From Polynucleobacter sp. MG-Unter2-18 (GTDB lineage Bacteria; Pseudomonadota; Gammaproteobacteria; Burkholderiales; Burkholderiaceae), in contig NZ_CP061302.1 in NCBI RefSeq assembly GCF_018687675.1, positions 1,562,192 to 1,626,191 on the forward strand: DNA of 64,000 bases. Reading direction: 5' to 3'. Shown piece after piece: positions 44,093 through 63,166 of the stretch (position 1 is its first letter; each line of letters begins with the position of its first letter). A model generated the notes under the pieces. The model ran no database searches. It was not told where the DNA came from and worked only from the letters and a program-made list of their open reading frames with translations. The translations under genes and the position numbers were made by a program.

Positions 44093-44098
44093 TATTTT

Positions 44099-44713: not shown

Positions 44714-44716
44714 TTG

Positions 44717-45598: not shown

Positions 45599-45638
45599 TT
45601 ACACCCTCACTTATATTCAATAAAATCATTGAATGATT

Positions 45639-46313: not shown

Positions 46314-46316
46314 TGA

Positions 46317-47126: not shown

Positions 47127-47131
47127 TTCAC

Positions 47132-47180: not shown

Positions 47181-47216
47181 CCTATAACGAAGTAGGCACA
47201 CACAATAAAGGCTTCT

Positions 47217-47775: not shown

Positions 47776-47794
47776 AATTCACAAACGTTACCTC

Positions 47795-48103
47795 CTAGCC
47801 TAGTACCTTAGGCGTATATTTTGCTAGCTGCGACTCAAAGTCCCACTTGATGTAATCAGCATCTTTAAATGTACCGATCTGCACGCCAGAACTAGTAATT
47901 GCCCACCCAGCGCTGGACTTAGTAATTTCAAATTCATAGTCGCCATGCCGATCTGTATACCGAGCAAGGTAATGCTGAGGAGTATCAATGAGCACCTCAG
48001 GCGAAAGATGCTCAAACTGCAAAATAACGCTTTCATGATTTTTTAATGCATTAATTATTTGATTGACATCGTTTTTAAGTGCGGTTTCAAAAGCTAAGTT
48101 CAT
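47795..48103 (-). CDS. Hypothetical island protein (102 aa)
   Basis: ATG 48103 is preferred because AGGAA lies upstream at usable spacing. The product starts MNLAFETALKNDVNQIINAL and ends KWDFESQLAKYTPKVLG. Mixed alpha/beta, soluble. Not recognised. Third gene of a leftward set with 48118-48918 and 48980-49645. Confidence 0.6.
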   Translation of the reverse strand: MNLAFETALKNDVNQIINALKNHESVILQFEHLSPEVLIDTPQHYLARYTDRHGDYEFEITKSSAGWAITSSGVQIGTFKDADYIKWDFESQLAKYTPKVLG

Positions 48104-48117
48104 GATCATTTCCTTTT

Positions 48118-48918
48118 TTAGATTACAGTGGCTTCGTTAACAAGCTCAATCTGCTCTACAGCCCGACTGCCTTGATTGAGCTTTTCTCGCTCTTCATTTG
48201 CCTTGATTCGCATTTTCGCAACGCCTTCTCGAGCTGTATCCATATCTTTACAAAGATAGGCGCTTAATTTTTTAAGCGCATAGTTTTCAAGCTCGACTTC
48301 AGCTGGCAACTTACAGACGACGTTGTAGTGCCCATTACTAACAGTGCACACCACATACTCAAATTCGCAGTTGTCGTTATTAATGCCATCGAACTGATTG
48401 GGCGCCGCAAACTTAGCAAATGGAAAGTAGCCACGTGACTGCAAATAAGTGCGCGTAAGTTCTAAACGCTCATCCTCAAGCTGTTGCTTCTCGTCTACTT
48501 TCTCATCATCTACCCCAGCTAGACGCATTTTTTCCAAGCCGCCTGCCTCAATAATTGCTTGCGGTAATTCGGCCGCCTTAAAGTGGCACGCCATAGCAGT
48601 CTCGATTGCCCTGGTATAGACATGCGCCGTTTTACGATCAGCTCTAGTAATGTATTTGACAAGTAAGGCAACATCGCTGGTATTTTCTTGCACCTTAATG
48701 TTTGCCTCTTTAAGCCTATACCGTAGGTTAAAAAATAGATCCTCCTTATCTGGACTTGCTTCAAACTGCTGAGCCAATTCCATGATTTTTGACAATAGCT
48801 CATAGAGCTTTCGTCTACCAGTCACTATGTATTGGTCATTGAATAGATCATGCTCTATGGCCAACACTTCAGCCTGGCTTATTAATGATTTATTCACTAC
48901 TAATTCATTTTTTTTCAT
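48118..48918 (-). CDS. Hypothetical island protein (266 aa)
   Basis: A soluble, mostly helical acidic protein starting MKKNELVVNKSLISQAEVLA. The C-terminal third contains FEYVVCTVSNGHYNVVCKLP followed by a coiled-coil-like KMRIKANEEREKLNQGSRA. No nucleotide-binding motif. Not recognised; probably plasmid- or ICE-type accessory. Confidence 0.65.
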   Translation of the reverse strand: MKKNELVVNKSLISQAEVLAIEHDLFNDQYIVTGRRKLYELLSKIMELAQQFEASPDKEDLFFNLRYRLKEANIKVQENTSDVALLVKYITRADRKTAHVYTRAIETAMACHFKAAELPQAIIEAGGLEKMRLAGVDDEKVDEKQQLEDERLELTRTYLQSRGYFPFAKFAAPNQFDGINNDNCEFEYVVCTVSNGHYNVVCKLPAEVELENYALKKLSAYLCKDMDTAREGVAKMRIKANEEREKLNQGSRAVEQIELVNEATVI

Positions 48919-48979
48919 TTTTTATTTCCTTATTTGATTTGCTTATGCAGCGCCAATAGCAGCGCTGCTTTTTTTACTA

Positions 48980-49645
48980 TTAGTGATAGAGATAGGCATT
49001 TTGGCGTATCGGACTATCTGAGTTAATTTCTGAATGGCAGTTGTATTTGATGCCTAAGCGATCGCAAGCTTCGATTAATGCCTCGCCAATTTCCGAGTCA
49101 TCGAACGAGAAACCCAGCTCCTCAAATACGATGCTGGATGCCTCTTGCATAATCCAGACATCGTCTTCCGTGAGCGCAATTTGATTGGCAATCTTAAATG
49201 CCGCCTGATGTACTTTATTCATGCAGTCCGAGCACATATTGGCATTTAGGCATTCCATGATTGGGTCAAATTCTGCCTCATCCTCACTAGATTCGTCCGT
49301 AAGTCCCAAAGCCATATTCATATGATCGACCAAACCATCCCGATCAATAAATTGCATGCCGTAGCGCTTGGCTGATTTTATGCGCGCCTTGGTCGCCTTC
49401 GAATCCTTTAAGCAGATACCATGCACGTCCATGGTGAGCTGATCAATTCGATCAAGTACCTTTAGATCTTTGCGGTTCAGCTTTACACCTTGACTGACTT
49501 TGTTAATGGCTCTTGTGTAAAGTTCTAAGTCCTCTTGGCTTAAACCTTCCTTAATAGTTTCATGAACATCTAGCAATCCAATTCCAGTGCTAGATAACAT
49601 GATTTTGTCCGCACTGACCATCCCCAATTTCACTGTATTTCTCAT
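48980..49645 (-). CDS. Hypothetical island protein (221 aa)
   Basis: Helical soluble protein beginning MRNTVKLGMVSADKIMLSST, with a cysteine pair MCSDCMNKVHQAAFKIA and an acidic central region (DESSEDEAEFD). The CxxC could bind zinc. Not recognised. First of three leftward genes, divergent from 49767-50726. Confidence 0.65.
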   Translation of the reverse strand: MRNTVKLGMVSADKIMLSSTGIGLLDVHETIKEGLSQEDLELYTRAINKVSQGVKLNRKDLKVLDRIDQLTMDVHGICLKDSKATKARIKSAKRYGMQFIDRDGLVDHMNMALGLTDESSEDEAEFDPIMECLNANMCSDCMNKVHQAAFKIANQIALTEDDVWIMQEASSIVFEELGFSFDDSEIGEALIEACDRLGIKYNCHSEINSDSPIRQNAYLYH

Positions 49646-49766
49646 CTTTAATTCTCCTCATTTATGGTCTAGACACTATGTTTCGATCCATGAAATAAGT
49701 GTAGAATTTATTAGCAACTATTTGATTTGACTGTTTATTGTCACCGTTAAGTGTTAATATATTTGA

Positions 49767-50726
49767 ATGGCTACAGCACCTAAAAACACCACTATTCCGG
49801 GACGAACCACCAAAGATTGGTCGACTAAAGGCATCCAGGGTTATGTCATGCTGATGGTGGAATTTCTGCGGATCAGCCCAAGCTATGCCTTAGCACATGA
49901 GATTAGAACTAAGAAGATAGCCCCATCAAAACAAGCTCCACTCATTCTTAAGCTTTACCGAGATATGGATAAACCGCTCACCAAACAAGCGGAGCGCGAT
50001 GTCATTAGTGACTTTGCGCGAGTGCTATCGACCTACGATGAATACGGCGACATATTTCAATGTTCATTTGAAGAGTGGTGGGCTAACCGAGGCTTAACTA
50101 TGTATGGATCGCCCTACAACAAGCCGATCGTTAAGAAGATTGCCGGCATGAGTCAGGGGGAGTCTTACGAACCTCTCTTTGGAAGAGCATTGGAGCATTA
50201 CTTTAATAAACAGCGAGCCGGTGAAGGCAATCCACCGGCTTTACTATTGGCAGTTCCTCTTGGGCAACCTAAAAGGCAATTACTCGCGTATATCTCTAAA
50301 CTGATTGATGCTGAGGCAGTTCCTTTACCTAGTAAGTCCCAAAGGGCTATCAAACCTCTAGCAGCCAAACGTTTACGCTCAAAGCCACTCTTTATCATGT
50401 TGCGTATATTGATGGCTAGAGCCCAATATCCTGAAATTCCCTTATGGCGGATTGGGAAACATGCGGGCGTAAGCCAAAAATACGCCCAAACAGAAATCAC
50501 CCTCAATAAAAAACGCTTACAGGATGCTGACGCTAAGATTCATTTGAGTATTTTGACAAGTCGGTATTTTCTTAAAGCCAAATGTGTTGCTGAGCAAGCA
50601 GCGCGAGGACAATTTCCAAGTTCATCTAAGTTGATACTGCCCATATTTGATCTTGATGCTATTTTCAAACGACTACAGGCAAGATATCCGCAGCTCAAAG
50701 CAAGCAAACCTACAAAATCAAAGTAG
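49767..50726 (+). CDS. Hypothetical basic island protein (319 aa)
   Basis: Basic protein (MATAPKNTTIPGRTTKDWST) with GIQGYVMLMVEFLRISPSYA near the start and a helix-turn-helix-looking RIGKHAGVSQKYAQTEITLN around residue 235. It could bind DNA. I do not recognise a family. It converges with the small recombinase gene, leaving a 1-bp gap. Confidence 0.6.
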   Translation: MATAPKNTTIPGRTTKDWSTKGIQGYVMLMVEFLRISPSYALAHEIRTKKIAPSKQAPLILKLYRDMDKPLTKQAERDVISDFARVLSTYDEYGDIFQCSFEEWWANRGLTMYGSPYNKPIVKKIAGMSQGESYEPLFGRALEHYFNKQRAGEGNPPALLLAVPLGQPKRQLLAYISKLIDAEAVPLPSKSQRAIKPLAAKRLRSKPLFIMLRILMARAQYPEIPLWRIGKHAGVSQKYAQTEITLNKKRLQDADAKIHLSILTSRYFLKAKCVAEQAARGQFPSSSKLILPIFDLDAIFKRLQARYPQLKASKPTKSK

Positions 50727-50727
50727 G

Positions 50728-51294
50728 CTAAATCAGCTCCACCGCATTACGCAGGATATCGGGACGAGTATCAATATAGCGCTGCGTAGTGCTCATCTGA
50801 CTATGGCCTGCTAACTGCATCATCACCCTTACTGACACCCCCTTCTCACTGAGTCGTGTCAAAAAGCCACGGCGACCGCTATGGCTAGTAGCGCCATTGA
50901 GTCCTGCTTGACGATATAAGCCGTTAATCACATGCGTTAAGGTGTTTGGTGTGAATCCCAAAGCCCTTTGTGTGGGGAACAATGGACGATTCATGTCTTT
51001 TGGTGGATGCGCTGCGATATAGATGGCAAGCTCCTGTTGCATACGCTCTGATAACAGCACTACCCTACTTTTAGAGCCCTTGGTCTGATTTGCAGCTAAG
51101 TGAATCTCGCTTAACACCTGTTTATCCGCGTTTAAAACGTCGCTGTAGCGCACACTTGCTACTTCACCTATTCGCATACCCGCCCAGTGCGTTAACAGCA
51201 GTATTGCGCGATTACGCACTGCTGCTTTGGTGCTCGCTGCGTAGTCTAGTGCTCGCTGTAATTCTGCATCACTTAATGTTTTTGCTTGTGCCAT
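50728..51294 (-). CDS. Minimal tyrosine recombinase
   Basis: ATG 51294 follows AAGGAG by 5 nt. The 188-residue product is only the catalytic domain: LLTHWAGMRIGEVASVRYSD (first Arg), SHSGRRGFLTRL (His-x-x-Arg), LAGHSQMSTTQRYIDTRPD (His and Tyr nucleophile). The N-terminal core-binding domain is missing, so it may rely on partner proteins. Such short recombinases occur in conjugative elements and plasmids. Confidence 0.88.
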   Translation of the reverse strand: MAQAKTLSDAELQRALDYAASTKAAVRNRAILLLTHWAGMRIGEVASVRYSDVLNADKQVLSEIHLAANQTKGSKSRVVLLSERMQQELAIYIAAHPPKDMNRPLFPTQRALGFTPNTLTHVINGLYRQAGLNGATSHSGRRGFLTRLSEKGVSVRVMMQLAGHSQMSTTQRYIDTRPDILRNAVELI

Positions 51295-51635
51295 GGTCTC
51301 TCCTTGTATTGCCATCTATGTACTTATATTTTGTAGTCAAAACTGCCATATTCCTACCGAAAATGGCCACTAATACACTCAGATTGATGGGTTTTTCAAG
51401 TGAAAATGACTGAAAAATAATCGCTTGATTTTCAAATGGTTACAAGCACTCAACACTTAACGTAACTAATGTGTTGAGTGGAAAAATCATGGAATTTGAT
51501 GGCGATTCGTGGCAGATTTGCCACATGACTAGGTATAAATTCTGTCAAAATTGTCATCGTATATCCCAATCGAAATATTTCGTATTGCAGTAGTATTTCA
51601 CAACCAATATGTGAAATTGACGGAAAAAAATCAAA
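51295..51635. other. Intergenic region between recombinase and 51636 gene
   Basis: AT-rich divergent promoter region. No gene seen. Confidence 0.4.
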
Positions 51636-52433
51636 ATGCCACAACATCCAAGATACAGTAATAGTCCAGAAAAAAATTACGAAAATTTAGGTAACCTTTT
51701 ATGGGAACTAGAGAAATTTGGCTTTATTCACGATGAAATAGATCAACCAATTAATCAATTAATGTCAAAGCTATATCCAGAAATTACAAATACGTATATT
51801 TTACGCAATAACGATCTACCACTTGACGCAAATGTTGCTGATTATGATGTGGAGGAGCTTGATGCTTACTTGCCGAGTGTGTATGAGATCTGGGAACTAA
51901 TCGACGATGATCAAGAGGAGCAATTTGTACAGGACTATCAGAATGTAATTAGATCCTGTGTTTTTGGTGATGGTTACATGCTTTCTGATAACAAAGAATT
52001 TATTGATGAACTCATTAAATTGCGAGACCTTGACTACTACAGAATGAATATAAGAGTTGATTGTGATCCTCAGACACTAAATTTATTTGAAAACGATGAG
52101 CGAACTATTTGGTTTTCATGGGATATTTTTCCACTGAGAGTTGGAATTTATGAAATATCAACAGATCGCTACAACGAGTCATATCGTGTTAGTGGCTATG
52201 CTCATTGGGATGGAAAAAAATGGCATGACTCCAGTGTTTTGTTAGCTGACTGTATTAAGCAAAAAAGAACTAAGCAAACTTCAAGAGACTATGGATATAC
52301 GTGGCGAGGTTTTACGGCCTCTATAACTACAAAAGAGATGCTGGAAAGAGAGCAAAAATATAAAAATAGACGTATGCGAATGTTGGATTCATTAAACTCT
52401 TCAGCATCTTTCGAGTTTGCAGAAGCTCTTTGA
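51636..52433 (+). CDS. Acidic hypothetical island protein (265 aa)
   Basis: Starts MPQHPRYSNSPEKNYENLGN, strongly acidic in the middle (NVADYDVEELDAYLPSVYEI) and basic at the C terminus (EREQKYKNRRMRMLDSL). GYAHWDGKKWHDSS could be a small beta domain. It is AT-richer than its neighbours. Not recognised. Confidence 0.6.
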   Translation: MPQHPRYSNSPEKNYENLGNLLWELEKFGFIHDEIDQPINQLMSKLYPEITNTYILRNNDLPLDANVADYDVEELDAYLPSVYEIWELIDDDQEEQFVQDYQNVIRSCVFGDGYMLSDNKEFIDELIKLRDLDYYRMNIRVDCDPQTLNLFENDERTIWFSWDIFPLRVGIYEISTDRYNESYRVSGYAHWDGKKWHDSSVLLADCIKQKRTKQTSRDYGYTWRGFTASITTKEMLEREQKYKNRRMRMLDSLNSSASFEFAEAL

Positions 52434-52865
52434 GAACCAAATCTTGAAATTTTCAATGTATGACTGAAGATTATTACTTTAAAAGCTAACTGCGTTAGCT
52501 TGCTCTTCGCTTGCGCTCATCGCATTTTTCTTCTTTTTTAATGTTTTTTAAAATTATGATTTGAAGTATTGAATTTCAAGATCTTTCACTAGGAAGCACA
52601 AGCCAAGCCCTGATAAAGGGCTCAACTCATGCAAGCCTCTTTCACTGAGGTTTTCAACTGATATACACACAACTTGCAAGAAGCAAGATAGGTAGGTATT
52701 GCTATCACCTATTACGTGCCGTCATACGCAGCTAATTTGCGGTCTATATCAGGAACCCTTGCAAATTAGCTTGTGGGTTTATTTCATTGGCTTTCCCACT
52801 CACTTTCAGCCTAGACGAATTAATCAATAATTCGACAATTTAGCCTAGATTCACGTATTACTACG
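52434..52865. other. Non-coding region with inverted repeats
   Basis: A large hairpin AGCTAATTTGC (52730-52740) with GCAAATTAGCT (52761-52771) and a smaller CGAATTA/TAATTCG at about 52816-52833. No gene seen. Structure of this kind can be a transfer or replication origin, but no relaxase or replication gene is close. Confidence 0.45.
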
Positions 52866-53087
52866 CTACCAACAGATACAACATCGCAAACGGTACTGCC
52901 ACACAGGGGCGTCGTTTAAAGCATCCAAAACAGGGTCTTGGGTAGTGCAATGAGGCCAGATAGTAAGTGATCTGAATTGCGTACCGTCACACATCAGAAC
53001 GGGTTTCGCAGCACTATTACCTTCGGCGTGCCAACCTTTAAGCCTTACTGTTTTACTTGTTTCTATGAATTTATTTAGCTTGAACAT
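52866..53087 (-). CDS. Doubtful small protein (73 aa)
   Basis: MFKLNKFIETSKTVRLKGWH leads to a cysteine-rich C terminus (WQYRLRCCICW). The ribosome binding site is weak. It might be a real small gene or chance; context gives no help. Confidence 0.35.
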   Translation of the reverse strand: MFKLNKFIETSKTVRLKGWHAEGNSAAKPVLMCDGTQFRSLTIWPHCTTQDPVLDALNDAPVWQYRLRCCICW

Positions 53088-53217
53088 AAAGATCGGTAAA
53101 AAAAGTAGTTATGTGTTCTAGGGCCTAAAAACGGTGTTTTTTCGGTTGTCCAAAGGGGTTTTCTGATCATATTGTTGTGTTGTCCAGGCATTTTTAACTC
53201 AACTGATGGAGAACACG

Positions 53218-53715
53218 ATGGCAACACTAGATAGTCTTAATACCCTCAAATTGACCGATGCAAAACGGCCTAAAAACCAGCCCCCTTTAGTGCAGCGCAG
53301 AAACAAGCTGATTAGCAAGTTATGGGAGCAGCTGGAATTGGCTAAGGCAAAACATAGCGGTAAAGACTTTGTCGTAAAGCGCTACAAAAACGTTAAAGAT
53401 CTAGAAGGCAATATCAAGAGCATCGAAAAGCCCAAGTGTATTAAACCCTGGTGGTTTACCAGCAGCACCGGAACACTGTGTATCAATGTGTTTTACGGCA
53501 GCAAGGTTTTAGAGCTAGCTAATGGCAAAACTGCTGTAGAGGCTACTAATTTAGAAAATGTCATTGAAGTACTTGAACTCTTAAAGCGTGAAGCGGAGAT
53601 CGGTACGTTTGATGCGGCCATTGAAGCAGCCAGCTTGCAGCTGCGCAGTCGCTTTGAATTGAAAATCCCGAAAACGAGTCAAAAGAGCAAGGTTTTGACT
53701 AGATCTATTACGTAA
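53218..53715 (+). CDS. DUF6641 family protein
   Basis: ATG 53218 follows GGAG by 6 nt. Starts MATLDSLNTLKLTDAKRPKN, then PPLVQRRNKLISKLWEQLEL and KPWWFTSSTGTLCINVFYGS with KVLELANGKTAVEA. This order matches DUF6641, a family seen in integrative conjugative elements and plasmids. Function unknown. Confidence 0.75.
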   Translation: MATLDSLNTLKLTDAKRPKNQPPLVQRRNKLISKLWEQLELAKAKHSGKDFVVKRYKNVKDLEGNIKSIEKPKCIKPWWFTSSTGTLCINVFYGSKVLELANGKTAVEATNLENVIEVLELLKREAEIGTFDAAIEAASLQLRSRFELKIPKTSQKSKVLTRSIT

Positions 53716-53754
53716 ACCCAATTCATAAATAAATGACTGTGAGGCGTAGCAAAA

Positions 53755-54120
53755 ATGAATCTATCTAAAACCCAGCTTTTGAATCATTTGGAGCAATTTT
53801 ATGGAACGCAGTACTACTACCCTCTGTGGCCTAAAGTCTTTCTAACGGATGGTGCACAGTTTCTGGCACAAGAAGCAGCCTGCTATTGGCTGATGGATGC
53901 CATAGCTAGCCATATCCTGCGCCTGCCTAAAGCAGAGGTATTTGTCAGCTGCAAGTTAACGGTGAATAACGATAAGGCTGAGCTTGTACTAGATGATGGC
54001 AATGGCAATGTTCTAGCCACGCAGAAGATCAACTACACGACCTTCCCGCTCGACTCAATCGCTCTATACGCCTGCTGGGATAGTGAACGCTGGATTGTGA
54101 TGTTACCTACTGAGTATTGA
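53755..54120 (+). CDS. DUF6876 family protein
   Basis: 121 residues: HLEQFYGTQYYYPLWPKVFL, TDGAQFLAQEAACYWLMDAI and a C-terminal FPLDSIALYACWDSERWIVM ending LPTEY. These blocks match DUF6876, another common family of mobile elements. Located 39 bp after DUF6641, consistent with co-transcription. Function unknown. Confidence 0.8.
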   Translation: MNLSKTQLLNHLEQFYGTQYYYPLWPKVFLTDGAQFLAQEAACYWLMDAIASHILRLPKAEVFVSCKLTVNNDKAELVLDDGNGNVLATQKINYTTFPLDSIALYACWDSERWIVMLPTEY

Positions 54121-54149
54121 TAATTAAAAGCAAGTAGCTAAATATCAGT

Positions 54150-54500
54150 ATGCGATTTTATGAATTCCAATCCTCTCCAGCTAAACCATTAACTCCAGCG
54201 CAGGCCCGCATTAGGGCGCTTAAAGATCAGGCCAAACGAGCGCAAGCAGCAGTTAAGGCTGAACGAGCTAGGCAAAAGATTCAAGCTGCTCAAACCACAC
54301 TCAATCAATTAGAAAGTCGTTCAATGTCAAAAACCTTTAGAGCATTACATAAGCCCAATAACCCTTACTCTGCTTGGATAGGTATTGGAACCTATGGCTC
54401 ATTTAATGATGCACTAGCAGCTGTAATAAGAAAGAAGAAACAAGGCTCAATTGCAGTGCAAATTGTGGATAGCGCCAAGATGGTGGTTTATTCTTCTTAA
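54150..54500 (+). CDS. Hypothetical protein with basic coiled coil
   Basis: 116 residues. The N-terminal half is a Lys/Arg/Ala-rich helix (PAQARIRALKDQAKRAQAAV); the C-terminal half is a small alpha/beta region (SAWIGIGTYGSFNDALAAVI). Follows DUF6876 by 29 bp in the same direction. Not recognised. Confidence 0.6.
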   Translation: MRFYEFQSSPAKPLTPAQARIRALKDQAKRAQAAVKAERARQKIQAAQTTLNQLESRSMSKTFRALHKPNNPYSAWIGIGTYGSFNDALAAVIRKKKQGSIAVQIVDSAKMVVYSS

Positions 54501-54616
54501 GCGCTAATACATATCTAAAACCATCATATTCGACACATAAGTTACAGGCGTTTAGACCTAAACCTAAATAAAAATAAGCTATTCAGAATCAAAGCAATGA
54601 ATAAAATTATGAAAAA

Positions 54617-56146
54617 TTACTTATATTTCCAACCATAACCACCGGCGATTTTTCTTCGGCCTTTGCAAACTGAAGTTATATGAGAGCCTGAGACTTTAAT
54701 ACCACGACTTCGTAATACATTTTCTGCGATTGAGATGCTTTGAAATTCTTCATTAGTATCGAGGCATATGACCACTTTAGGACCCCCTCTTTGCGACACT
54801 CTTAATGGTTTAACCTGGTTTGCATTAAATGTGTCATTTTTAAACCATCGAAGACCATTAGAAATCTGCCTATCAGTTTTTCCAGAAATTATCTGAGATA
54901 GGTTTGTATAACCAGCACGTCTTGCATCTGATAATGACTCGAATTCTACAACAACTTCAAGCGATTCTGGATCTACGCCGACCACTTTTATTGGGTTATT
55001 TGATTCATCTTTTAATCTACCAACATCTCTAGGAAAAAAGTTCGGAATTTCAAAAATTAATAATTCTTTTTCGTAGTCAACAGATGCAGCATCATTAATA
55101 TATTTACGTACAAACTCAATAATCTCTTCAAGTCGATCGTGCCAATAGCACTCGGTATCTCCAGACCATCGCTCACCAGTTCGCATCCCTGCCATCAGTA
55201 TCCGCAAGTCATGCTGTTTTTTAAAATGTCTGTGTATTTGATTTTCAAGAATGTATGCATCGACTTCAGAGAGTTGAGCAGAAAAATATATCTTCTTCAG
55301 ATTCCACTTATAACGTTCGTTTAGTGTTCGAGTAGTGACACCTACTTTAATAGATTCGATTCCGAATACTTCAACAGACATTACGCCAATATAAGTTGCA
55401 CGGCCCTTTGATCCAGACTCAACAAGTGCTCTAAGTCGATTTCCTGCATAACCAACTGACGCATTACCGCAACTAGGGCATTTGTGCTCAGATCTCTTTA
55501 GGTAACCTTTAGTCGTCAGATGCTCGCCATGAATATCACATTTAATTTTAATACGCGAAGATCTTGATTTTTCATCAAATTCAACTGAAATAATTGTTAT
55601 ATTTTCTGGTAAAAATTCTTTAAACTCTTCTTTCACCTCATCAAGACTCAAGCGATTAACATTAGCGACATTTTCTTTTGCGCAATATTTACAACCATAT
55701 CCAGAATTGTTCATTAAAAAAGTTGGTTTATGACTTTCTATAGTTTGATGCGTTTTACAAAAGAAATCCATTTCTGAAGTCATGCCATGAAACACGGAGT
55801 ACATTTCAAGTCTATTTGACAGATTTTTTTTAAAATAATTCTCAAACTTTTTATATTCGCGATCAAGAAAATAATTAGATGCTTGTTCAGTATCACAATT
55901 TTTACATCCACCACTTTTAAATCGAATATGGTTAAATGGTGTGACATAAAATTTATTTGCATGTTTAACGCAAGTTACTAAAATTTCGGGTTTCTTTTGC
56001 GTTTTAAAATTTTCAAATGAACAGGAGTAATCGAACGCTACTCCATGCATTTCGTAGGCGCGATTCATCCAGGCTTTGTATCCTGAGAGTCGAATCTTTT
56101 CTTGACCATCAGCGGAGATTTTTCGTTTTGATATTTGAATGCTCAA
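54617..56146 (-). CDS. Free-standing GIY-YIG-like endonuclease with zinc knuckles and NUMOD domains
   Basis: 509 residues. Residues 1-230 hold repeated zinc-knuckle units (GGCKNCD, YGCKYCAK, HKCPSCGN with intervening CxxH pairs). A GIY-YIG-like core follows (TYIGVMSVEVFGIESIKVGV ... TTRTLNERY, with a Glu in DAYILENQIHRHF). Two C-terminal NUMOD1-like DNA-binding repeats resemble one another (SLSDARRAGYTNLSQIISGK and SISIAENVLRSRGIKVSGSH). This is the architecture of a homing-type endonuclease. It is AT-rich compared with its neighbours, suggesting recent transfer. Confidence 0.75.
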   Translation of the reverse strand: MSIQISKRKISADGQEKIRLSGYKAWMNRAYEMHGVAFDYSCSFENFKTQKKPEILVTCVKHANKFYVTPFNHIRFKSGGCKNCDTEQASNYFLDREYKKFENYFKKNLSNRLEMYSVFHGMTSEMDFFCKTHQTIESHKPTFLMNNSGYGCKYCAKENVANVNRLSLDEVKEEFKEFLPENITIISVEFDEKSRSSRIKIKCDIHGEHLTTKGYLKRSEHKCPSCGNASVGYAGNRLRALVESGSKGRATYIGVMSVEVFGIESIKVGVTTRTLNERYKWNLKKIYFSAQLSEVDAYILENQIHRHFKKQHDLRILMAGMRTGERWSGDTECYWHDRLEEIIEFVRKYINDAASVDYEKELLIFEIPNFFPRDVGRLKDESNNPIKVVGVDPESLEVVVEFESLSDARRAGYTNLSQIISGKTDRQISNGLRWFKNDTFNANQVKPLRVSQRGGPKVVICLDTNEEFQSISIAENVLRSRGIKVSGSHITSVCKGRRKIAGGYGWKYK

Positions 56147-56501
56147 CTTGACGACCTTTTAATTACATTCATTTTAAGAAAATATTTTAAATTAATAATG
56201 TTACATATTTAGGCGAAAGAATTATCAGCATATATGTAACAGGATGAACTTACAAATCGATGTATAAAAATATACAAAATCATGAGTTTCTTTGAACAGT
56301 CATATAAACATCCTGTTAAAGGATATTTCTTGATGGGGAATTAGAAAGAGATGCTAGCTTTATTTCTGTTGAATGTTTTGCTAATCTTTCCGATGATGGA
56401 CTTTTAGCCTATTAGTAGGGCACATATGCATAAATGATCCTTTAAAACTCACAATAGGAAAATTGCTGTTTTAATTCATTTTTAAGGACTAATATTAAAT
56501 T
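56147..56501. other. Intergenic region between endonuclease and repeat-protein genes
   Basis: AT-rich, no open frame with a ribosome binding site. It must hold the divergent promoters. Confidence 0.4.
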
Positions 56502-56912
56502 ATGAGAGATGCCCTTCTACTTCTAGCTCTTTTACTTGCGTCCAATGTTCATGCCCAGAATTTTTACAATCAGAATGGGCAATCTATCGGAAGAATAGAT
56601 GCTAACGGGAATATGTACAACGAATTAGGTCAATCCACAGGTCGTATTGATAGTAGTGGCAATGTGTATAACCAAATGGGGCAATCTTTGGGTCGGGTGG
56701 ATAGTAGCGGCAACTCCTACAATCAGCTCGGTCAATCCACAGGTCGGATAGACAAAAGTGGTAACTTGTACAACAGCCAAGGACAGTCTACTGGCAGGAT
56801 TGATGCAAGTGGCAATATGTACAACGCATTGGGTCAATCTACAGGCAGAATGGATCTGCCTCCACCAGGATTCACTCCATTTGCTCATCCTGCGGTTCGG
56901 TTCAATAAATAA
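56502..56912 (+). CDS. Exported 15-residue-repeat protein
   Basis: A signal peptide (LLLLALLLASNVHAQ) is followed by six tandem units of the form YN-x-x-GQS-x-GRID-x-SGN-x, ending with a proline-rich GFTPFAHPAV tail. The repeat resembles short beta-hairpin repeats of surface proteins. It overlaps the next gene by one base (TAATG). Function unknown. Confidence 0.75.
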   Translation: MRDALLLLALLLASNVHAQNFYNQNGQSIGRIDANGNMYNELGQSTGRIDSSGNVYNQMGQSLGRVDSSGNSYNQLGQSTGRIDKSGNLYNSQGQSTGRIDASGNMYNALGQSTGRMDLPPPGFTPFAHPAVRFNK

Positions 56913-57166
56913 TGGTGCTTAAATCTTTCTTTTTGTGCTTCGTATTAATGCTCAATGGCATTGCCTTGGCTCAATCCCAAGATAGAGAGTGGAAAGACTT
57001 TAAGGTTCAACCTGAACCTAAGAAACCCCAAACAAGCCATGACCGCACAGCTATCCCTAGTAATCCATATCAATTTCAAAGCTATCAGAGCATTCGTAGT
57101 GAAGTAAATGGTCAAGTGAAGAATTGCGTCATCAACAATAATGGCTATGTAGTTCGCTGTAATTAA
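56912..57166 (+). CDS. Small exported protein
   Basis: 84 residues with a signal peptide (FFLCFVLMLNGIALAQS), a polar Pro/Lys linker and a cysteine pair (VKNCVINNNGYVVRCN) that could form a disulfide. Its ATG overlaps the stop of the repeat-protein gene, so both are probably co-translated and work together. Not recognised. Confidence 0.65.
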   Translation: MVLKSFFLCFVLMLNGIALAQSQDREWKDFKVQPEPKKPQTSHDRTAIPSNPYQFQSYQSIRSEVNGQVKNCVINNNGYVVRCN

Positions 57167-57238
57167 ATGAGTAATTTGGCTGTTTTGAGGGTGTTTACAT
57201 TTATTTAATATTTAGGTACTATTAATTACACATCAAGA

Positions 57239-57344
57239 GATGGCTTAGTCGCCACAGCAACCTGCTAACGCAGTAAGGTGCTAAAAAGATGAGGCTCTTA
57301 GCGAGCAATCAACAGCGACTAACCCGCCTATTGGTGGGTTTTTT
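57239..57344 (+). ncRNA. Candidate structured RNA with intrinsic terminator
   Basis: TTAGTCGC (57247-57254) pairs with GCGACTAA (57315-57322), enclosing a long arm AGCAACC-TGC...GCA-GGTGCT and a short hairpin GCTC-TTAGC-GAGC. A terminator, CCCGCC-TATT-GGTGGG plus T-run, follows at 57323-57344. This looks like a three-way junction RNA: an sRNA, attenuator or phage-type antisense RNA. Drawn by hand from the sequence; no family assigned. Confidence 0.5.
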
Positions 57345-57410
57345 ATTGGGCGGATTTTTCCAAATTGCCATGCCCTGACATCTGTCGAAATGGCTAAAGA
57401 GGAGAGTGAA

Positions 57411-57665
57411 ATGTATATGACTAATTCTTATAGTGAATCTCATCTAGGTAGGATCTGCATTAATGTCAAACTGCAATTACTAGCAAGTAATGTAATTGCC
57501 TCTAAAGCCCTTCAACTAGGAATTCAAGATGCCGAAGTAATTGAACTACTTGATAGATTTATTAATGAGTGGATAGAGCATTGCAACAAACACTCAATTG
57601 AATACAAGAACTTAACTGGCTGGATTCTTCTTGATACCATAAAGAGACGATTTTTAGATATTTGA
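57411..57665 (+). CDS. Hypothetical island protein (84 aa)
   Basis: ATG 57411 follows GGAG by 6 nt. Helical soluble protein starting MYMTNSYSESHLGRICINVK and containing LGIQDAEVIELLDRFINEWI. Not recognised. A strong terminator follows at 57698. Confidence 0.6.
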   Translation: MYMTNSYSESHLGRICINVKLQLLASNVIASKALQLGIQDAEVIELLDRFINEWIEHCNKHSIEYKNLTGWILLDTIKRRFLDI

Positions 57666-57697
57666 ATAACAAAGTTAATTAATGTTAAGGGAATTTT

Positions 57698-57725
57698 TTA
57701 GCCTGAAGGCTAACCTCCTTTTTTT
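57698..57725 (+). terminator. Terminator after the 84-aa gene
   Basis: TTAGCC-TGAA-GGCTAA followed by CCTCC and a run of T to 57725. Confidence 0.88.
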
Positions 57726-57756
57726 GACGTTTTAAACAGCCTAAAGTACTTGTGCC

Positions 57757-57781
57757 TAACCGTTACTTTAAGTAACGGTTA
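57757..57781. repeat. Palindrome TAACCGTTACTT-T-AAGTAACGGTTA
   Basis: A perfect 25-bp palindrome 8 bp beyond the integrase stop (57790). Together with 59268-59288 it brackets the integrase gene. Confidence 0.8.
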
Positions 57782-57789
57782 CATCTGAC

Positions 57790-59136
57790 CTAAGCTGCCC
57801 GTAACTCCCTCTCAGCCCGCTTCTTACTTGGATAGTTATCAGCTGCCTTACTATCTGCCTCAATGAGCTTTCTAGTTGTAGCTCCGCGTAATTGCTCAAT
57901 AGCCTGTATTACCTGTAAGTGGCTATAGTGCCGCTCAATCATTAAGACACTCGTACCCATCTGTTTAGCTAGCGTATGGATAGGGACCATATCGTGAGTA
58001 AGTGCTAACGTGGCATAGGTATGACGTAGGCTATAGAACACCCGCTTTTGATTTGTCTTGGGGTCTATTAATAAACCATGGTCTGCTAAGAAACCGTCAA
58101 ACATGTGATTAAGTACATCACTTAAATCCCGTCCTTCTTTGGTTCTAAAGATGTAGTCATCGTTAGTGGGTTTAATGAGTTCAGCCAATGGATCTTTAAT
58201 AGAACTAGCTACTCCATAGTTCCGCATAGCAATGCGCTCCAAGACTCTAATGCTAGGTAAACGCCCAATAATTTGTCTTTGCCCTGTTTTACCTTTTACC
58301 GTCATCTCACAACTACGGTTAAGACTATGCACTTCAATGACTTCACCCTCCTCATCCAATTGATCTGTGACTGTACTAATGGGATTCATCATGAAACGGA
58401 TCTGCTTCCATTTCATATCAAGGAGCTCAATACCTGGCCTTGCTCCAGTGTCGACCAACATCTCCACATAGTCTCTAAGGATTTCACGGCGCTCGCGCAC
58501 GTCCCGAGTTCTGCCTGACTCTATGTATGGGCCTAGCAGTTTTAGTAAGGCTCTCAATTCATGTAGCTCAAAAGCTGGACGACGCACACTTTCTTTAGTC
58601 TTACCATCCAACTTGGGACGATTACTCTCCGTTAAGTAACCCCGAACAATAGCTTCATCAAACACTCTATTAAATGCAGCGTTTTGGGTTTTACGATTGC
58701 TGTTAGATAGTGTCAAGCCATATCTAGCCTCACGATCGTCGTAGTACTGCTGTAGGGCATCGTAGTCAATATTGGTAATAAGACGCTGCCCAAGACTGGG
58801 GATGAAATGCTCATTGATGATGCGAATGTAGTCCTTGTAGATTGACTTACCTAACCCGCCTTTTAAGTCTCGCTCCATACGATCAATTGCCAACATGGCG
58901 ATATCTTTAAAGCGTTTGGTTACTACTGGGATGCCAGAGCGCTTGCGTATTTCTGCCTCCACTAATAGCTCTTTAGCTTTATTAACCGCCAAATCAAGCT
59001 GGGTCTCTTTGGTAGTAGCCCGTATCCATTTGTTATCCACCTTATAGCGACATTGCCATACGGCACTATGCTCGCGTTGATAAAGGGTTAGGTTACGGTG
59101 TATGAGTTGATGTGTACTTTCTTTTTTAATTGCCAT
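57790..59136 (-). CDS. int: Tyrosine-type site-specific integrase
   Basis: 448 residues. An N-terminal arm-binding region (LTLYQREHSAVWQCRYKVDN), a core-binding domain (FIPSLGQRLITNIDYDALQQ) and a catalytic domain with DTGARPGIELLDMKWK (first Arg), FYSLRHTYATLALTH (Tyr instead of His before the second Arg) and MIERHYSHLQ (Tyr nucleophile). It is the only full-length recombinase in the array and lies 0.9 kb from the intron-containing tRNA. I infer it recombines at the CTCATAA core. Confidence 0.93.
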   Translation of the reverse strand: MAIKKESTHQLIHRNLTLYQREHSAVWQCRYKVDNKWIRATTKETQLDLAVNKAKELLVEAEIRKRSGIPVVTKRFKDIAMLAIDRMERDLKGGLGKSIYKDYIRIINEHFIPSLGQRLITNIDYDALQQYYDDREARYGLTLSNSNRKTQNAAFNRVFDEAIVRGYLTESNRPKLDGKTKESVRRPAFELHELRALLKLLGPYIESGRTRDVRERREILRDYVEMLVDTGARPGIELLDMKWKQIRFMMNPISTVTDQLDEEGEVIEVHSLNRSCEMTVKGKTGQRQIIGRLPSIRVLERIAMRNYGVASSIKDPLAELIKPTNDDYIFRTKEGRDLSDVLNHMFDGFLADHGLLIDPKTNQKRVFYSLRHTYATLALTHDMVPIHTLAKQMGTSVLMIERHYSHLQVIQAIEQLRGATTRKLIEADSKAADNYPSKKRAERELRAA

Positions 59137-59267
59137 ACATATACTTTAGCTTCAGAGCCCCAGCTAGAGCAACCAAGTTGGCTGAATTTTTCAGGTCAAT
59201 TTAGCCAAAAGAAAGTGTGGCTAGTTGTGGTGATTATTGGCGGATTTTGGGGAAGAATGGAAGGATG

Positions 59268-59288
59268 AGCGTTACTTTAAGTAACGCT
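59268..59288. repeat. Palindrome AGCGTTACTT-T-AAGTAACGCT
   Basis: A perfect 21-bp copy 130 bp upstream of the integrase start and touching the stop codon of the Ymh-type gene. Confidence 0.8.
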
Positions 59289-60016
59289 TAAGGAGTCCTA
59301 TCATCAACAATTCTTAGTAGATGACTTGCTAACATTGCCATCTCTTGAGCTTCCAAAGGATCAGTTATCTGAACCGTCCTGTGGCTATGTGGATTTTTAT
59401 ATGAACCAATAGCGCCTGCAAACAAATCGGACAAAGCCTGTCTTTCAACAGCATTTTGAGTCATGTCGGAAAGAATACCTGCGTCGGCATTAAAAGCAGC
59501 ACGCATTAACTTTGTACCAATATCCAAATCTGTAAAACCACCTGCGGCACGAACAGAAATTTCCACCTCCTTGAAAGCGGCAAAAACAGCATCATCTAAA
59601 TCCCCTTGAGACAATCTCAGCATCACCTTATCCCTAATCCTAGGATGTAATAGCTCTCTCGGAAATGCTGCGGCAGCTTTGAAAGATTCAAAACTTTTTT
59701 GATCTGTAATGCTTTTTGCTTTCCGGCCTAAAACGCACCAACCATTTGATCCATTTATCCCTGGCGCTTGCAAGACAAGCATATTAATTGTTAGCCAAGC
59801 CCAAGCCTCTTGTATTGCGGCATCAATTTCATTATTACGATTTGAGGGATACCAATCATCTGCCAAATTCAGAGCTCTGCCAACGCTTGATGGCTGAAAC
59901 ATTCCATTGTGATTTTGGTGAGGTGGAACCAAACCTAACAAGATTCTTCCTAACTCATCTGGAGCCATCGAAAGTAGAGTATCTACATCTGGAATTAATT
60001 TTGCGAGCGTTGTCAT
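59288..60016 (-). CDS. Ymh-type (TIGR02391) protein, defence-associated
   Basis: 242 residues. The C-terminal half matches the Ymh family: ELLHPRIRDKVMLRLSQGDL, DDAVFAAFKEVEISVRAAGG, GTKLMRAAFN and SYKNPHSHRTVQITDPLEAQ ending in ASHLLRIVD. These proteins occur in phage-defence and restriction neighbourhoods; catalytic function is unproved. Located between the integrase and the tRNA, a typical cargo place. Confidence 0.8.
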   Translation of the reverse strand: MTTLAKLIPDVDTLLSMAPDELGRILLGLVPPHQNHNGMFQPSSVGRALNLADDWYPSNRNNEIDAAIQEAWAWLTINMLVLQAPGINGSNGWCVLGRKAKSITDQKSFESFKAAAAFPRELLHPRIRDKVMLRLSQGDLDDAVFAAFKEVEISVRAAGGFTDLDIGTKLMRAAFNADAGILSDMTQNAVERQALSDLFAGAIGSYKNPHSHRTVQITDPLEAQEMAMLASHLLRIVDDRTP

Positions 60017-60039
60017 AAGAGCATCTTACATAAAAGACA

Positions 60040-60067
60040 AAACCCCCACCATTGCTGATGAGGGTTT
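60040..60067 (-). terminator. Terminator of the intact tRNA-Ile2
   Basis: A 12-bp stem identical to 26395-26422 except in the loop, followed leftward by TGTCTTTT, 8 bp past the tRNA CCA. Confidence 0.85.
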
Positions 60068-60074
60068 GCTTTTC

Positions 60075-60367
60075 TGGTGGGCCCACCAGGACTTGAACCT
60101 GGGACCAAAGGATTCCGGTTTGTGTAGCTTTCACTACTCCCTGGACTATGCCTTCATCATATCGATTGCTCGACTTAGATGGGTGCCGTCTAGTCTCTAC
60201 ACCTTCAACAGCACTTTCACGCTGAAGCTTGGCTCGGCGTTAGCTTGTGCAGCTTTTGACTGCATTTAGCTTTCTCCGAATTTGACACCATCCCTTATGC
60301 AGTTTCCACGCATAAGGCACAACTTTCGCTATGAGTCCTCTGCTCTAACCAACTGAGCTATGGGCCC
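60075..60367 (-). tRNA. tRNA-Ile2(CAT) interrupted by a group I intron
   Basis: Exon 1 is 60331-60367: acceptor GGGCCCA, D-arm GCTC...GAGC, anticodon stem GAGGA and loop CTCAT. Exon 2 is 60075-60114: loop AA, stem TCCTT, variable TGGTC, T-arm CCAGG-TTCAAGT-CCTGG, acceptor TGGGCCC, A and encoded CCA. Joined, they make a 77-nt tRNA with a CTCATAA loop. The intron lies between positions 36 and 37. Identity as Ile2 rather than elongator Met is by resemblance to Azoarcus tRNA-Ile(CAU). All stems are complete, so it should be functional after splicing. Confidence 0.93.
60115..60330 (-). ncRNA. Group I intron (Azoarcus tRNA-Ile type, IC3-like)
   Basis: 216 nt without an open frame. Splice sites fit group I rules: exon 1 ends in U and the intron ends in G. 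A GUG in the guide region pairs with exon CAU. P2 is CCTTATGC/GCATAAGG. Core blocks GATGGTGTCAAATTCGG, GTGTAGAGACTAGACGGCAC and GAAGGCATAGTCCAGGGAGT match the remembered 205-nt Azoarcus tRNA-Ile(CAU) intron nearly exactly. It should self-splice to restore the anticodon loop. Confidence 0.95.
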
Positions 60368-60561
60368 TAAATCGTTACTTTTACTACACACCTTACTGCT
60401 AGTGTTTACCACTTCAAAACCACACTAAAACCGCATTTACTACACACCTCGGTTTTTGCTCCGGTGTGTAAGCGGTGTGTAAGCAATTTTGACCACCTAA
60501 TTCACCACTAACCTCTTGAATCTATTGAGGTCTTTGTTACAAGACCCCTAGGGTTTCTTTC
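60368..60561. repeat. Right end sequence of the island array
   Basis: Contains two GGTGTGTAAGC direct repeats (about 60465-60485), two inverted CTACACACC copies (about 60379 and 60441) and a degenerate palindrome half (ATCGTTACTTTTAC at 60371). It ends AGGGTTTCTTTC before the core TTATGAG, similar to the AGGTTCTCTGG left of the internal cores. It must also provide the promoter of the intron-containing tRNA. Confidence 0.7.
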
Positions 60562-60600
60562 TTATGAGTCCTCTGCTCTAACCAACTGAGCTATAGGCCC
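60562..60600 (-). tRNA. tRNA-Ile2(CAT) 5'-half remnant at the right island boundary
   Basis: Leftward from 60600: acceptor GGGCCTA, TA, D-arm GCTC-AGTTGGTTA-GAGC, A, anticodon stem GAGGA and loop CTCATAA ending at 60562, then unrelated sequence. It lies 13 bp after the rpoD stop, the expected original chromosomal place. The acceptor differs from the intact copy (GGGCCTA versus GGGCCCA), so the intact copy is a different allele. Non-functional. Confidence 0.88.
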
Positions 60601-60613: not shown

Positions 60614-63166
60614 TCAATCCTCTTCGAGGAAGGTCTTGAGTTTGTCGCTGCGGCTTGGATGACGCATCTTTCTTAAGGCCTTAGCTTCAATCTGACGAAT
60701 ACGCTCACGCGTCACATCAAACTGCTTACCAACTTCTTCGAGAGTATGGTCTGTACTCATCTCAACACCAAAGCGCATACGCAATACTTTTGCTTCGCGT
60801 GGTGTTAATGAATCTAGAACATCCTTCACTACATCGCGCATTGAGTCATGCAAAGCTGCTTCAGCTGGAGCTAAGGTATTACTGTCTTCAATGAAGTCAC
60901 CCAAGTTTGAGTCCGCGTCGTCACCAATTGGTGTCTCCATGGAGATTGGCTCTTTAGCAATCTTCATGATCTTGCGAATCTTGTCCTCAGGGATTTCCAT
61001 CTTGAGAGCCAAGGTTGCAGCATCTGGCTCATGACCAGTCTCTTGCAAGATTTGACGGCTAATACGGTTCATCTTATTAATCGTCTCAATCATATGAACT
61101 GGGATGCGGATCGTACGTGCTTGGTCAGCAATAGAACGGGTAATCGCCTGACGAATCCACCAAGTTGCATAAGTAGAGAACTTATAACCACGACGGTATT
61201 CAAACTTATCTACCGCCTTCATCAAACCGATATTACCTTCCTGAATCAAATCTAAGAACTGCAAACCGCGGTTGGTGTATTTCTTAGCAATCGAGATTAC
61301 CAAACGTAAGTTGGCAACCGTCATCTCACGTTTCGCTTCACGCGCACGCTTCTCACCAGCAATCATCTGCTTGTTTACTTCTTTTAATTCTGGGAGTGGT
61401 AATACAACACGTGTCTGAATGTCGATCAACTTCTGCTGTAATTCCTGAATCGCTGGAACATTACGTTGCAGCAATGCGGTGTATGGCTTGTTTTCTTTGA
61501 GGAGCTTATTTACCCACTCTAGATTCATCGACATTTTCGGGAAGTCTTTTAATACTTCGCTACGATTTACGCCAACTTTATCTACCAATAAGCTCACAAT
61601 GCCGCGCTCGAGCTTCCAAACTTGATCTACTTGTGAACGCATGGTGTCACATAATTTCTCAACACTCTTTGCAGTTAAGCGGAAACCAAGCAACTCGCCA
61701 CGAATAGCTTCTTGTGCCTTGATATAAGCTGGGCAGTTATAGCCCTCTTTATCAAAAGCGCGACGCATCTTGTCAGACTGGGTGCGCACGATTGCAAACT
61801 TCTCTAGAGAGATCTGCTTCAATTCCTCTAATTGCTTAGCGTTAGCTGTAGCTGCGCCACCGCCGCCACCGCCGCCTTCATCCTCACCGCCTTCATCGTC
61901 ACCCTCTTCAGCATCTGGGTCAATCTCTGGCTCTTCAGGTCCAAGCTTAATATCTTCGGCATTAGGATCAACCAATCCATCCACAAACTGATCAATTTCC
62001 ATCTCACCACTAGCAATCTTGTCTACGTTAGCCAAGATCTCGCCAATAGTGACAGGGCAAGCAGCCAAAGCCATCACCATATCTTTAAGGCCTGCTTCAA
62101 TCTTCTTCGCGATCACGATCTCGCCTTCGCGAGTCAGCAAATCGACAGTACCCATCTCGCGCATATACATACGCACTGGATCGGTTGTACGACCAAACTC
62201 TGAGTCGACGGTAGCTAAAGCGGCTTCAGCCTCTTCTTCAGCCTCTTCCTCGGAAGTGGTTGCTGAAGCATTTTCATTCAGGAGGAGCGTCTCAGCATCT
62301 GGAGCCTGCTCATACACAGTAATGTTGATGTCATTTAAGAGGCTGATCAATGTTTCTAAAGCATCAGCATCTGATAACTCATCAGACATCACGTCATTCA
62401 TTTCACCATGAGTTAAGTAACCCTTGGACTTACCCATCTTGATCAATGTCTTCAGACGGGTGCGACGTAATTCTTGTTGCTCTTCAGAGCCTAACTGTTG
62501 TGCTGCGAATTCTTTTAAGAGTGCCTTTTCTTTTGCCTTACGCTCACGCGCTTTTTGACGATCAGTCAGAACTGGTTCAGCACCTTCCGCAGGAGCATCC
62601 GCTTTGGGTTTACGACCTTTCTTTACTTCTTCAGTCGCAACAATCTCAGTATCTGGCTGAACTGCTTTTGCTTTTTTGCCCTTGGCTTCTTTAGCTTCCG
62701 GAACTTCCTTAGTAGCTTTAGCTGCCTTAGCCGGCTTTAACTCAACCTTAGGAGCGGCGGCTTTACCTTTTTTAGGAGCCTCCACTTTTGCTGCTGGTTT
62801 AGCCGCAGTCTTTACTGCAGCTTTTACCGCTTTAGCAGGTGCCTTTACTGACTTAGCTGCTACTTTTGTTGGTGCCTTAGCTTTAGCTGCTGATTTAGCT
62901 GGCGCCTTAGCTTTTGCTGCTGGCTTGGCTGGCGCTTTTGCTGGTGCTTTAGCTTTGGCTATCGGCTTGGCAGGTGCCTTGGCTTTTACCGCTGGCTTGG
63001 CTGGCGCTTTGGCTTTTGCTACCGGCTTAGCTGGTTTAGCCGGAGTTTTTACTTTGGCCGCTGGTTTAGCAGGTGCCTTGGCTTTTGCCGCTGGCTTGGC
63101 TGGCGCTTTGGCTTTTGCTACCGGCTTAGCTGGTTTAGCTGCTGGTTTTTTCTTGGTATTAGGCAT
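60614..63166 (-). CDS. rpoD: RNA polymerase primary sigma factor
   Basis: 850 residues. The first 200 or so are a Lys/Ala/Pro-rich tail of repeated [10 protein letters not shown] units. Region 1.1 follows, then region 1.2 ([20 protein letters not shown]), an acidic insert with a glycine run, region 2 ([40 protein letters not shown]), region 3 and region 4 ([36 protein letters not shown]). It directs housekeeping transcription. dnaG lies upstream in the usual order. Confidence 0.97.

Follow-up and report, generated by a model that had tools for sequence, protein, structure and literature searches.

How can an integrative element persist in a chromosome when its insertion has broken an essential transfer RNA (tRNA) gene, and why should the whole copy of that gene which the element carries be interrupted by a group I intron within the very bases at which the element inserted? 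Both questions are raised by a stretch of 64,000 nucleotides from the freshwater bacterium Polynucleobacter sp. MG-Unter2-18 (hereafter the window; C1:1562192-1626191 of a single-contig genome of 2.009 Mb, designated G000), in which the tRNA-Ile2(CAT) gene linked to rpoD is broken at its anticodon loop, CTCATAA, and its two halves are separated by 34 kb. The answer to which we incline, at a little better than even confidence, is that the intron is kept because it shields the replacement gene from integrase. The features on which the argument depends are as follows.

60614..63166, minus strand: rpoD (open reading frame, ORF), the conserved neighbour upstream of the tRNA-Ile2 locus
60562..60600, minus strand: 5' half of the host tRNA-Ile2, ending in the core CTCATAA (60568-60562), the left junction; read from the sequence
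60368..60561, minus strand: island end adjoining the left junction, with TTACACACCG / GGTGTGTAGTAAA repeats, putative arm-type integrase sites; from the sequence
60331..60367, minus strand: 5' exon of the replacement tRNA-Ile2(CAT), ending CTCAT; ARAGORN -i
60115..60330, minus strand: group I intron of 216 nt at tRNA positions 36/37, inside the 7-bp core (CTCAT^AA); ARAGORN -i and Rfam RF00028
60075..60114, minus strand: 3' exon of the replacement tRNA-Ile2(CAT) (AATCC...CCA); ARAGORN -i
60040..60067, minus strand: intrinsic terminator 3' of the replacement tRNA; terminator scan
57790..59136, minus strand: tyrosine integrase, 448 aa; PHROG_1 integrase, E 1.1e-31
26430..26474, minus strand: displaced 3' half of the host tRNA-Ile2, core at 26474-26468 with TTCTGCT just before it; read from the sequence
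26395..26422, minus strand: terminator 3' of the displaced 3' half; similarity to the scanned terminator 60067-60040 (repeat D10)

The broken gene and its replacement

The broken-gene anatomy of the rpoD-linked tRNA-Ile2 locus is certain. A first-pass annotation of the window had claimed that the host gene is disrupted at its anticodon loop beside rpoD, that the 3' half and its terminator lie about 34 kb away, and that integration did not rebuild the gene, and each of these statements is borne out. Both halves and the core can be read directly, and when the halves were joined by script at the core, the composite aligned across the junction to the intact sites of the relatives that were tried (six of the 58 intact loci described below): over 237 bp at 95-97% in G014, G011, G005 and G007, over 232 bp at 98% in G083, and over 292 bp at 89% in G082. 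The junction is base 189 of the composite, and the match to its right covers 43-48 bp in five of the six cases and 103 bp in G082, which is to say the 3' exon and little beyond it. The left junction reads CTCATAAGAAAGAAACC instead of CTCATAATCCTTTGG, so the target is not rebuilt there in the manner of an Islander-type island. As in tRNA-dependent integration, the core is short (7 bp) and the host tRNA is left unrebuilt, with flanks that differ on both sides; a tyrosine integrase is present; and the element carries its target's own isotype as a whole gene. A check for crossovers mapping outside the anticodon loop found none, since all 61 of the 61 displaced 5' halves retain CTCATAA.

The replacement gene, c(60075-60367), is located some 195 bp into the island. 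It shares the strand of the 5' half, with which it forms a direct repeat (D12, 97%), and its terminator is a near-copy of the sequence 3' of the displaced 3' half (D10, 98%); a terminator scan of that strand between the 5' half and the replacement tRNA gave no match. ARAGORN with introns allowed reports the gene with its 216-nt intron and labels it Met from the CAT anticodon, the assignment to Ile2 being made from sequence identity to the native gene. Together with Rfam RF00028, this confirms the earlier claim that the island carries a whole tRNA-Ile2(CAT) with a group I intron at 36/37, inside the core. The default ARAGORN run, with introns off, returned zero tRNAs in the window, a warning that gene callers used in this way can miss tRNA-Ile2 at such loci.

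All 39 of the 39 RF00005 matches in the genome were typed, and there is no other intact tRNA-Ile2(CAT) among them: the other CAT tRNAs are initiator-like, elongator-like and a degenerate Ile2-like copy, and tRNA-Ile(TAT) is absent from the 39. The island-borne introned gene is the sole intact tRNA-Ile2 found in the genome. The degenerate copy, at C1:594648 (L009:1149-1222) near tRNA-Ser(CGA), has an acceptor short by one nucleotide, a changed anticodon arm and the lowest score of the 39, and may be dead or a weak backup; among the matches listed, best first, from a search of 129 genomes, it and its neighbourhood were matched end to end solely in G000.

The intron and the proposed shield

On the evidence of its RF00028 match (52.8 bits against a gathering threshold of 50; E 1.5e-10), its P1 helix and the compensatory changes among its relatives, the insert is a group I intron, and self-splicing is predicted. 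It begins directly 3' of CTCAT and terminates in CCGG before AA; P1 at the 5' splice site is a six-pair hairpin, CAU^AGC GAAA GUUGUG, with U.G at the junction, and the terminal G is present. In an alignment (A1) of 66 of the 85 distinct introns, the 19 omitted including the longest inserts, changes on both sides with pairing kept occur in 24 of the 55 predicted pairs, the rows being related by descent, and the catalytic core is largely invariant. To the eye, the peripheral helices in this alignment look shuffled among loci, as if the introns often recombine. A second group I intron type lies at 33/34, also inside the core; its example in G001 scores 35.6 bits, below the gathering threshold (E 1.9e-7). 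A search of the 121 surveyed loci by the 5'-end pattern found no intron copies, away from contig ends, that lack their 3' part.

In the mechanism that we propose, a tyrosine integrase would recombine the 7-bp core CTCATAA in the anticodon loop of the rpoD-linked tRNA-Ile2. The element has no 3' half at its junction, and integration would therefore break the essential gene; the element would survive by means of a whole, same-strand tRNA-Ile2 about 200 bp inside its end, which has its own terminator and could be read from the same side as the broken gene. The intron would set the half-sites, the arms of the anticodon stem, 223 bp apart instead of 7, so that an integrase requiring a 7-bp overlap could not use the introned gene; that a 216-bp insert in the 7-bp overlap stops the integrase follows from the mode of action of tyrosine recombinases. 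The shield would act against the integrases of later elements as well as against that of the element itself, by which the copy would otherwise be recombined with the neighbouring CTCATAA junction, while splicing at the RNA level would restore the tRNA. Later units would still attach at the far CTCATAA junction, and an array would therefore result. Judged from its anatomy, the replacement copy probably cannot be cut again by integrase, and we infer both that the intron is spliced in vivo and that the shield has been selected for. A passage of a published review (PMC8371274) treats the 7-bp overlap as equivalent to the anticodon loop, and the core sites as equivalent to the stem.

Distribution across the genus

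The rpoD end together with the tRNA half was sought in 145 Polynucleobacter genomes and found in 140, including the window's own; 19 of the 140 rpoD loci were not fetched, and the 120 that were, together with the window, make up the 121 loci analysed, whose states were assigned by hand and three of which (G152, G100 and G133), being cut by contig ends, are excluded from the counts. An intact, intronless tRNA-Ile2 stands at rpoD in 58 of the 121 loci, and a displaced 5' half followed by a whole replacement copy in 54. Two loci (G032, G034) have the intron with no displaced half, and in four others the 5' half is part of the element, the gene being reconstituted 5-6 kb away. Among the 54 replacement copies, 42 have the 36/37 intron, four have the 33/34 intron and eight are intronless; in G045 and G103, both within the 42, a replacement-type island follows an island carrying the 5' half.

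The intron is thus found in 46 of the 54 replacement copies compared with two of the 60 undisrupted loci (Fisher test, 8.6e-21, uncorrected for kinship). When the comparison was restricted to independent pairs on starred branches, the 10 pairs gave a median p of 0.03 (range 0.008-0.25). On the best rpoD tree (440 bases) the fewest changes required are 42 for the intact/half state and 36 for the intron; on the best island-end tree (54 rows), in which many branches are weak, the intron state needs seven changes, and the starred branches alone force three (36/37), two (intronless) and three (33/34). One of the eight intronless replacements, that of G053, has the same loop with a rewritten anticodon stem, GGCGA-CTCATAA-TCGCT. 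In G043 two displaced halves stand in succession ahead of an introned copy. The arms of G043 are about 82% identical (162 identities, 31 mismatches, 4 gaps), and since they differ, this single case is better explained by a second invasion, of a replacement without an intron, than by a recent duplication.

The disrupted loci are also marked by one family of integrases. The 448-aa integrase of the window gave no useful match in Pfam, NCBIfam or solved structures, and PHROGs supplied its identity. Near-full relatives at 96-98% identity occur in 13 of the 120 other loci, every one of them disrupted, and more distant relatives (31-87%) in further loci. Counting loci of at least 10 kb and this family only, other integrase families not having been sought, a relative is found at a distance of no more than 10 kb in 15 of the 33 loci that have the 36/37 intron, one of three with the 33/34 intron, four of seven with an intronless replacement and four of four where the 5' half belongs to the element, as against neither of the two half-less introned loci and none of the 56 intact loci; pooled, the figures are 20 of 43 replacement-copy loci against 0 of 56 intact. 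At 31% identity, a relative does occur 11 kb away in one of the intact loci, G107. A near-identical integrase accompanies all three kinds of replacement gene, being 98% identical in G071 and G076 (intronless), 96-98% in ten 36/37 loci and 97% in G098 (33/34), and the shield idea is for this reason directly testable by a simple recombination assay.

It could be that the intron protects the element from itself alone. The displaced half and the replacement copy are in direct orientation, with their 5' ends about 197-256 bp apart (about 380 in G053), and an integrase acting on direct repeats of the CTCATAA core at a spacing of a few hundred bp would delete the intervening arm; the exclusion of other elements would then be incidental. 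Cassettes beside an intact native gene match those beside an introned copy, in that the 1500 bp past the introned replacement in G047 (L120) are 99% identical to the DNA past the intact tRNA in G105 (L084). This match is equally explained by homologous recombination, however, and seven of the eight intronless replacements retain both cores and the native stem, so we consider it unlikely that self-protection is the whole function.

The DNA 3' of the tRNA is common to intact and introned loci, which indicates that cassettes are exchanged independently of the tRNA module. In several genomes, cargo cassettes end in a partial intron (its 3' part only) followed by the tRNA 3' exon, at the following rpoD-oriented positions.

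L088: 4276-4357
L043: 13611-13692 and 16138-16262
L126: 3120-3244
L140: 3581-3716

The intron breakpoint, close to the stop codon of the last gene, seems to be constant within a cassette type and peculiar to it. A reading of these cassettes as integrases attached inside the intron was dropped, as no integrase was seen by eye in 14 segments and the breakpoints vary by cassette. The partial-intron ends, the exchange of modules between G105 and G047 and the shuffled look of the peripheral helices would all be accommodated if the group I intron had homed into island copies of the tRNA and the displaced halves had arisen by homologous recombination and not by integrase. We regard this as very improbable: 61 of 61 displaced 5' halves stop at one 7-bp core amid many different flanks, one integrase family marks the disrupted loci, and an intron of 216 nt is too short for any known homing endonuclease gene.

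Evidence against the shield and the origin of the intron

The first-pass annotation had further inferred that the intron hides the replacement gene from the recombinase as an immunity mechanism. In favour of this, the intron splits the crossover core, its helices covary and introns in the genus are nearly confined to replacement genes; its upkeep for immunity is contested, and a number of observations weigh against it. The shield is not obligatory, since seven of the eight intronless replacements persist with the native core and stem intact, in G071 and G076 alongside an integrase 98% identical to that of the window. Of the 33 loci with the 36/37 intron, 18 lack any integrase of the family over a distance of 10 kb, so that introned copies are kept without one. 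Units without a tRNA, with CC(A/T)GAGAACC junctions, are not enriched beside replacement copies (7 of 43, compared with 4 of 56 intact loci; p 0.20), and the sharing of post-tRNA DNA by intact and introned loci implies that homologous exchange of the tRNA module also operates. Group I introns of bacterial tRNAs lie in the anticodon loop anyway, and the presence of two introns inside the core is accordingly weaker evidence than it appears. A passage of the review cited above (PMC8371274) counts tRNA genes with introns among the sites at which elements integrate in Thaumarchaeota, so protection by an intron is not a general rule.

Outside the genus, loci were taken from the 60 stretches that a single exact-pattern scan of genome contigs brought up. 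The informative loci (n = 19, counted by eye) are those outside Polynucleobacter with rpoD no more than about 900 bp upstream; L228 and L248, with rpoD more than 900 bp away, were left unjudged. In seven of the 19, which count for the shield, a displaced half is followed by an introned gene, the same layout as in the window (Gulbenkiania, a Sterolibacterium metagenome-assembled genome (MAG), a Methylophilaceae MAG, Massilia, Duganella, a Dechloromonas MAG and a marine gamma MAG). In the other 12, which count against it, the rpoD-linked gene has the intron and no displaced half; the taxa include Neisseriaceae, Rhodocyclaceae, Pseudoduganella, Uliginosibacterium, Chitiniphilus and Propionivibrio. 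The check for an intron at the same locus without a displaced half is therefore answered in the affirmative: these 12 loci and the two in Polynucleobacter mean that the intron is not exclusive to islands. The same intron is also carried in CAT-anticodon tRNA genes by seven IMG/VR contigs (L293-L299), where there is no obvious need for protection of the bacterial attachment site (attB), and this too counts against a shield; in one of these (L293) a further tRNA-like sequence lies directly 3' of the introned gene. Among phage and plasmid records, no place was found that covers 80% of the introned gene.

The half-less and viral genes are what would be expected under the main competing explanation, that the element captured tRNA-Ile2 from a host whose gene had a native intron of the Azoarcus type, the interruption of the core being a by-product with no selection for immunity. 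Group I introns are common in the tRNA genes of the family: RF00028 matches occur in 136 of 398 genomes of the family, and of 27 such loci inspected outside the genus ARAGORN assigns 22 to tRNA-Leu, two to tRNA-Gln and one to a CAT tRNA, with two untyped. The two best matches of the family search are introned tRNA-Gln(CTG) genes by ARAGORN (L159 and L160, in the small genomes G198 and G218), and the CAT tRNA gene, whose intron is of the 33/34 type, belongs to another genus of the family (L190, G221). We nevertheless judge a passenger intron improbable, in view of the near confinement of the intron to replacement copies within the genus, of the seven intron-state changes needed on the best island-end tree (fewer being forced by the starred branches), and of the second intron and the rewritten stem, which reach the same end. 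In addition, some of the half-less introned loci may themselves be relics of islands, because the DNA upstream of the half-less introned gene of Limnobacter matches the island arm of Gulbenkiania and Dechloromonas at 80 of 102 positions (21 mismatches, 1 gap; score 57 against a shuffle maximum of 14); a weaker arm match was obtained for Azonexus (score 32-33 against 16).

A broader form of the shield reading may be put forward tentatively, at rather less than even confidence: a family of integrative elements at the betaproteobacterial rpoD-linked tRNA-Ile2 would take over the site, insertion destroying the attB that they share while the element provides an essential tRNA with its core concealed in one of at least three separate ways (the 36/37 intron, the 33/34 intron and the rewritten anticodon stem of G053). 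Later loss of the half would leave what looks like an introned native gene, and the other tRNA-Ile2 introns at rpoD would then be in part relics, as the Limnobacter arm remnant, G032 and G034 might be.

The array of units and its cargo

The first-pass annotation had described a single island of 34 kb. The distance between the halves is as claimed; the interval, however, is an array of core-bounded units. Three further CTCATAA junctions (47709-47703, 43877-43871 and 32552-32546), which share the form TCTGCT CTCATAA CC(A/T)GAGAACC, lie between the halves, which are therefore separated by four units in a chain. The protein cargo labels of E1-E3 below are NCBIfam matches under curated cut-offs, except where marked as assigned by eye; the units are given without strand.

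47710..60561: unit E4, with both recombinases and the introned tRNA; far core 47709-47703
43878..47702: unit E3, with rhodanese-like and methyltransferase-like (by eye) cargo; far core 43877-43871
32553..43870: unit E2, with thiosulfate-transporter-like, sulfide-quinone-reductase-like and cytochrome-bd-like cargo; far core 32552-32546
26475..32545: unit E1, with BtuB-like and BtuF-like proteins and a cobalamin riboswitch
50728..51315, minus strand: short second tyrosine recombinase catalytic domain, 195 aa, in E4; PF00589, E 1.7e-26
59288..60016, minus strand: TIGR02391 (Ymh) family protein of unknown function, between the tRNA and the integrase

Relatives of either E4 recombinase were sought elsewhere in positions 20001-61060 of the window and none was found, so there are none in E1, E2 or E3. 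The near junctions of these three units contain no part of a tRNA, and alone they would therefore be predicted to break an intact tRNA gene. In the 120 other loci, only their ends and parts of their cargo were matched among the best rows, and not the whole units. As to whether the carrier might be a temperate phage, the seven E4 proteins compared with PHROGs matched just integrases and one family of unknown function. The outer limit of the island is not fixed, because the DNA past the displaced 3' half also varies among relatives; an attempt to place it by synteny was abandoned for the same reason.

Three other features were observed in the array. A cobalamin riboswitch at 30545-30760 (minus strand) precedes the BtuB-like receptor in E1, and a SAM-I/IV riboswitch match (RF01725, 65 bits, 57225-57322, plus strand) in E4 lies upstream of a 91-aa ORF with no Pfam match. 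A near-perfect palindrome, AGCGTTACTTAAAGTAACGCT or a close variant, recurs by the array junctions and the integrase gene, and a regulatory or arm-binding role for it would be a guess. Its positions are as follows.

26365-26387, 26662-26684, 32451-32471, 32741-32763, 43776-43798
44069-44091, 47608-47630, 57757-57777, 59266-59288

Relation to known systems

The Azoarcus-type group I intron of tRNA-Ile(CAU) is a feature of the native gene. The intron of the window resembles it in occupying the same tRNA, in being inserted after CAU and in belonging to group I by RF00028, and differs from it in its carrier, an integrative element whose insertion destroys the gene of the host. If the shield reading is correct, it provides a function for some self-splicing introns of bacterial tRNA genes, together with a route for their spread, and the loci described here offer a natural, replicated test of the old idea that tRNA introns guard genes against integrating elements, which in the literature consulted has so far been argued from archaeal cases.

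Both ingredients of this reading are already known, in the passages of the sources cited here, from tRNA-dependent lysogeny (PMC10865867) and from protective introns borne by archaeal elements (PMC3293823). Literature searches combining group I introns, tRNA and genomic islands or integrases did not find a bacterial combination of the two ideas, a statement which extends as far as those searches. Islander-type islands, as described in part of PMC4383910, are similar to the window element in having a tRNA target, a tyrosine integrase and a displaced fragment at the far end, but at their junction the target is made whole again with sequence of the island itself, which does not happen with the window element. 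In the tRNA-dependent lysogeny of actinobacteriophages (Guerrero-Bustamante and Hatfull 2024, PMC10865867), passages of the report describe an experimental demonstration that the phage tRNA is required, and tRNA-Ile2-CAT is among the targets. The carrier here is instead a betaproteobacterial island and the replacement gene is split in its core, whereas those passages mention no intron in a phage tRNA.

A precedent for the shield is archaeal. Passages of Sugahara et al. 2012 (PMC3293823), which builds on Randau and Soll, explicitly propose that an element-borne tRNA intron prevents further invasion; in the Caldiarchaeum clones described there, an introned whole gene and a recombinase have a displaced 5' tRNA fragment upstream of them, at a tRNA-Thr locus with an extra intron at 24/25 which derives from a crossover between attB and the attachment site of the element (attP). 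The introned copy in the window is not placed as that origin would require, since about 195 bp of island DNA separate it from the junction. The present case differs further in that the interrupting sequences are group I ribozymes, which occur at two positions inside the core and in dozens of bacterial genomes.
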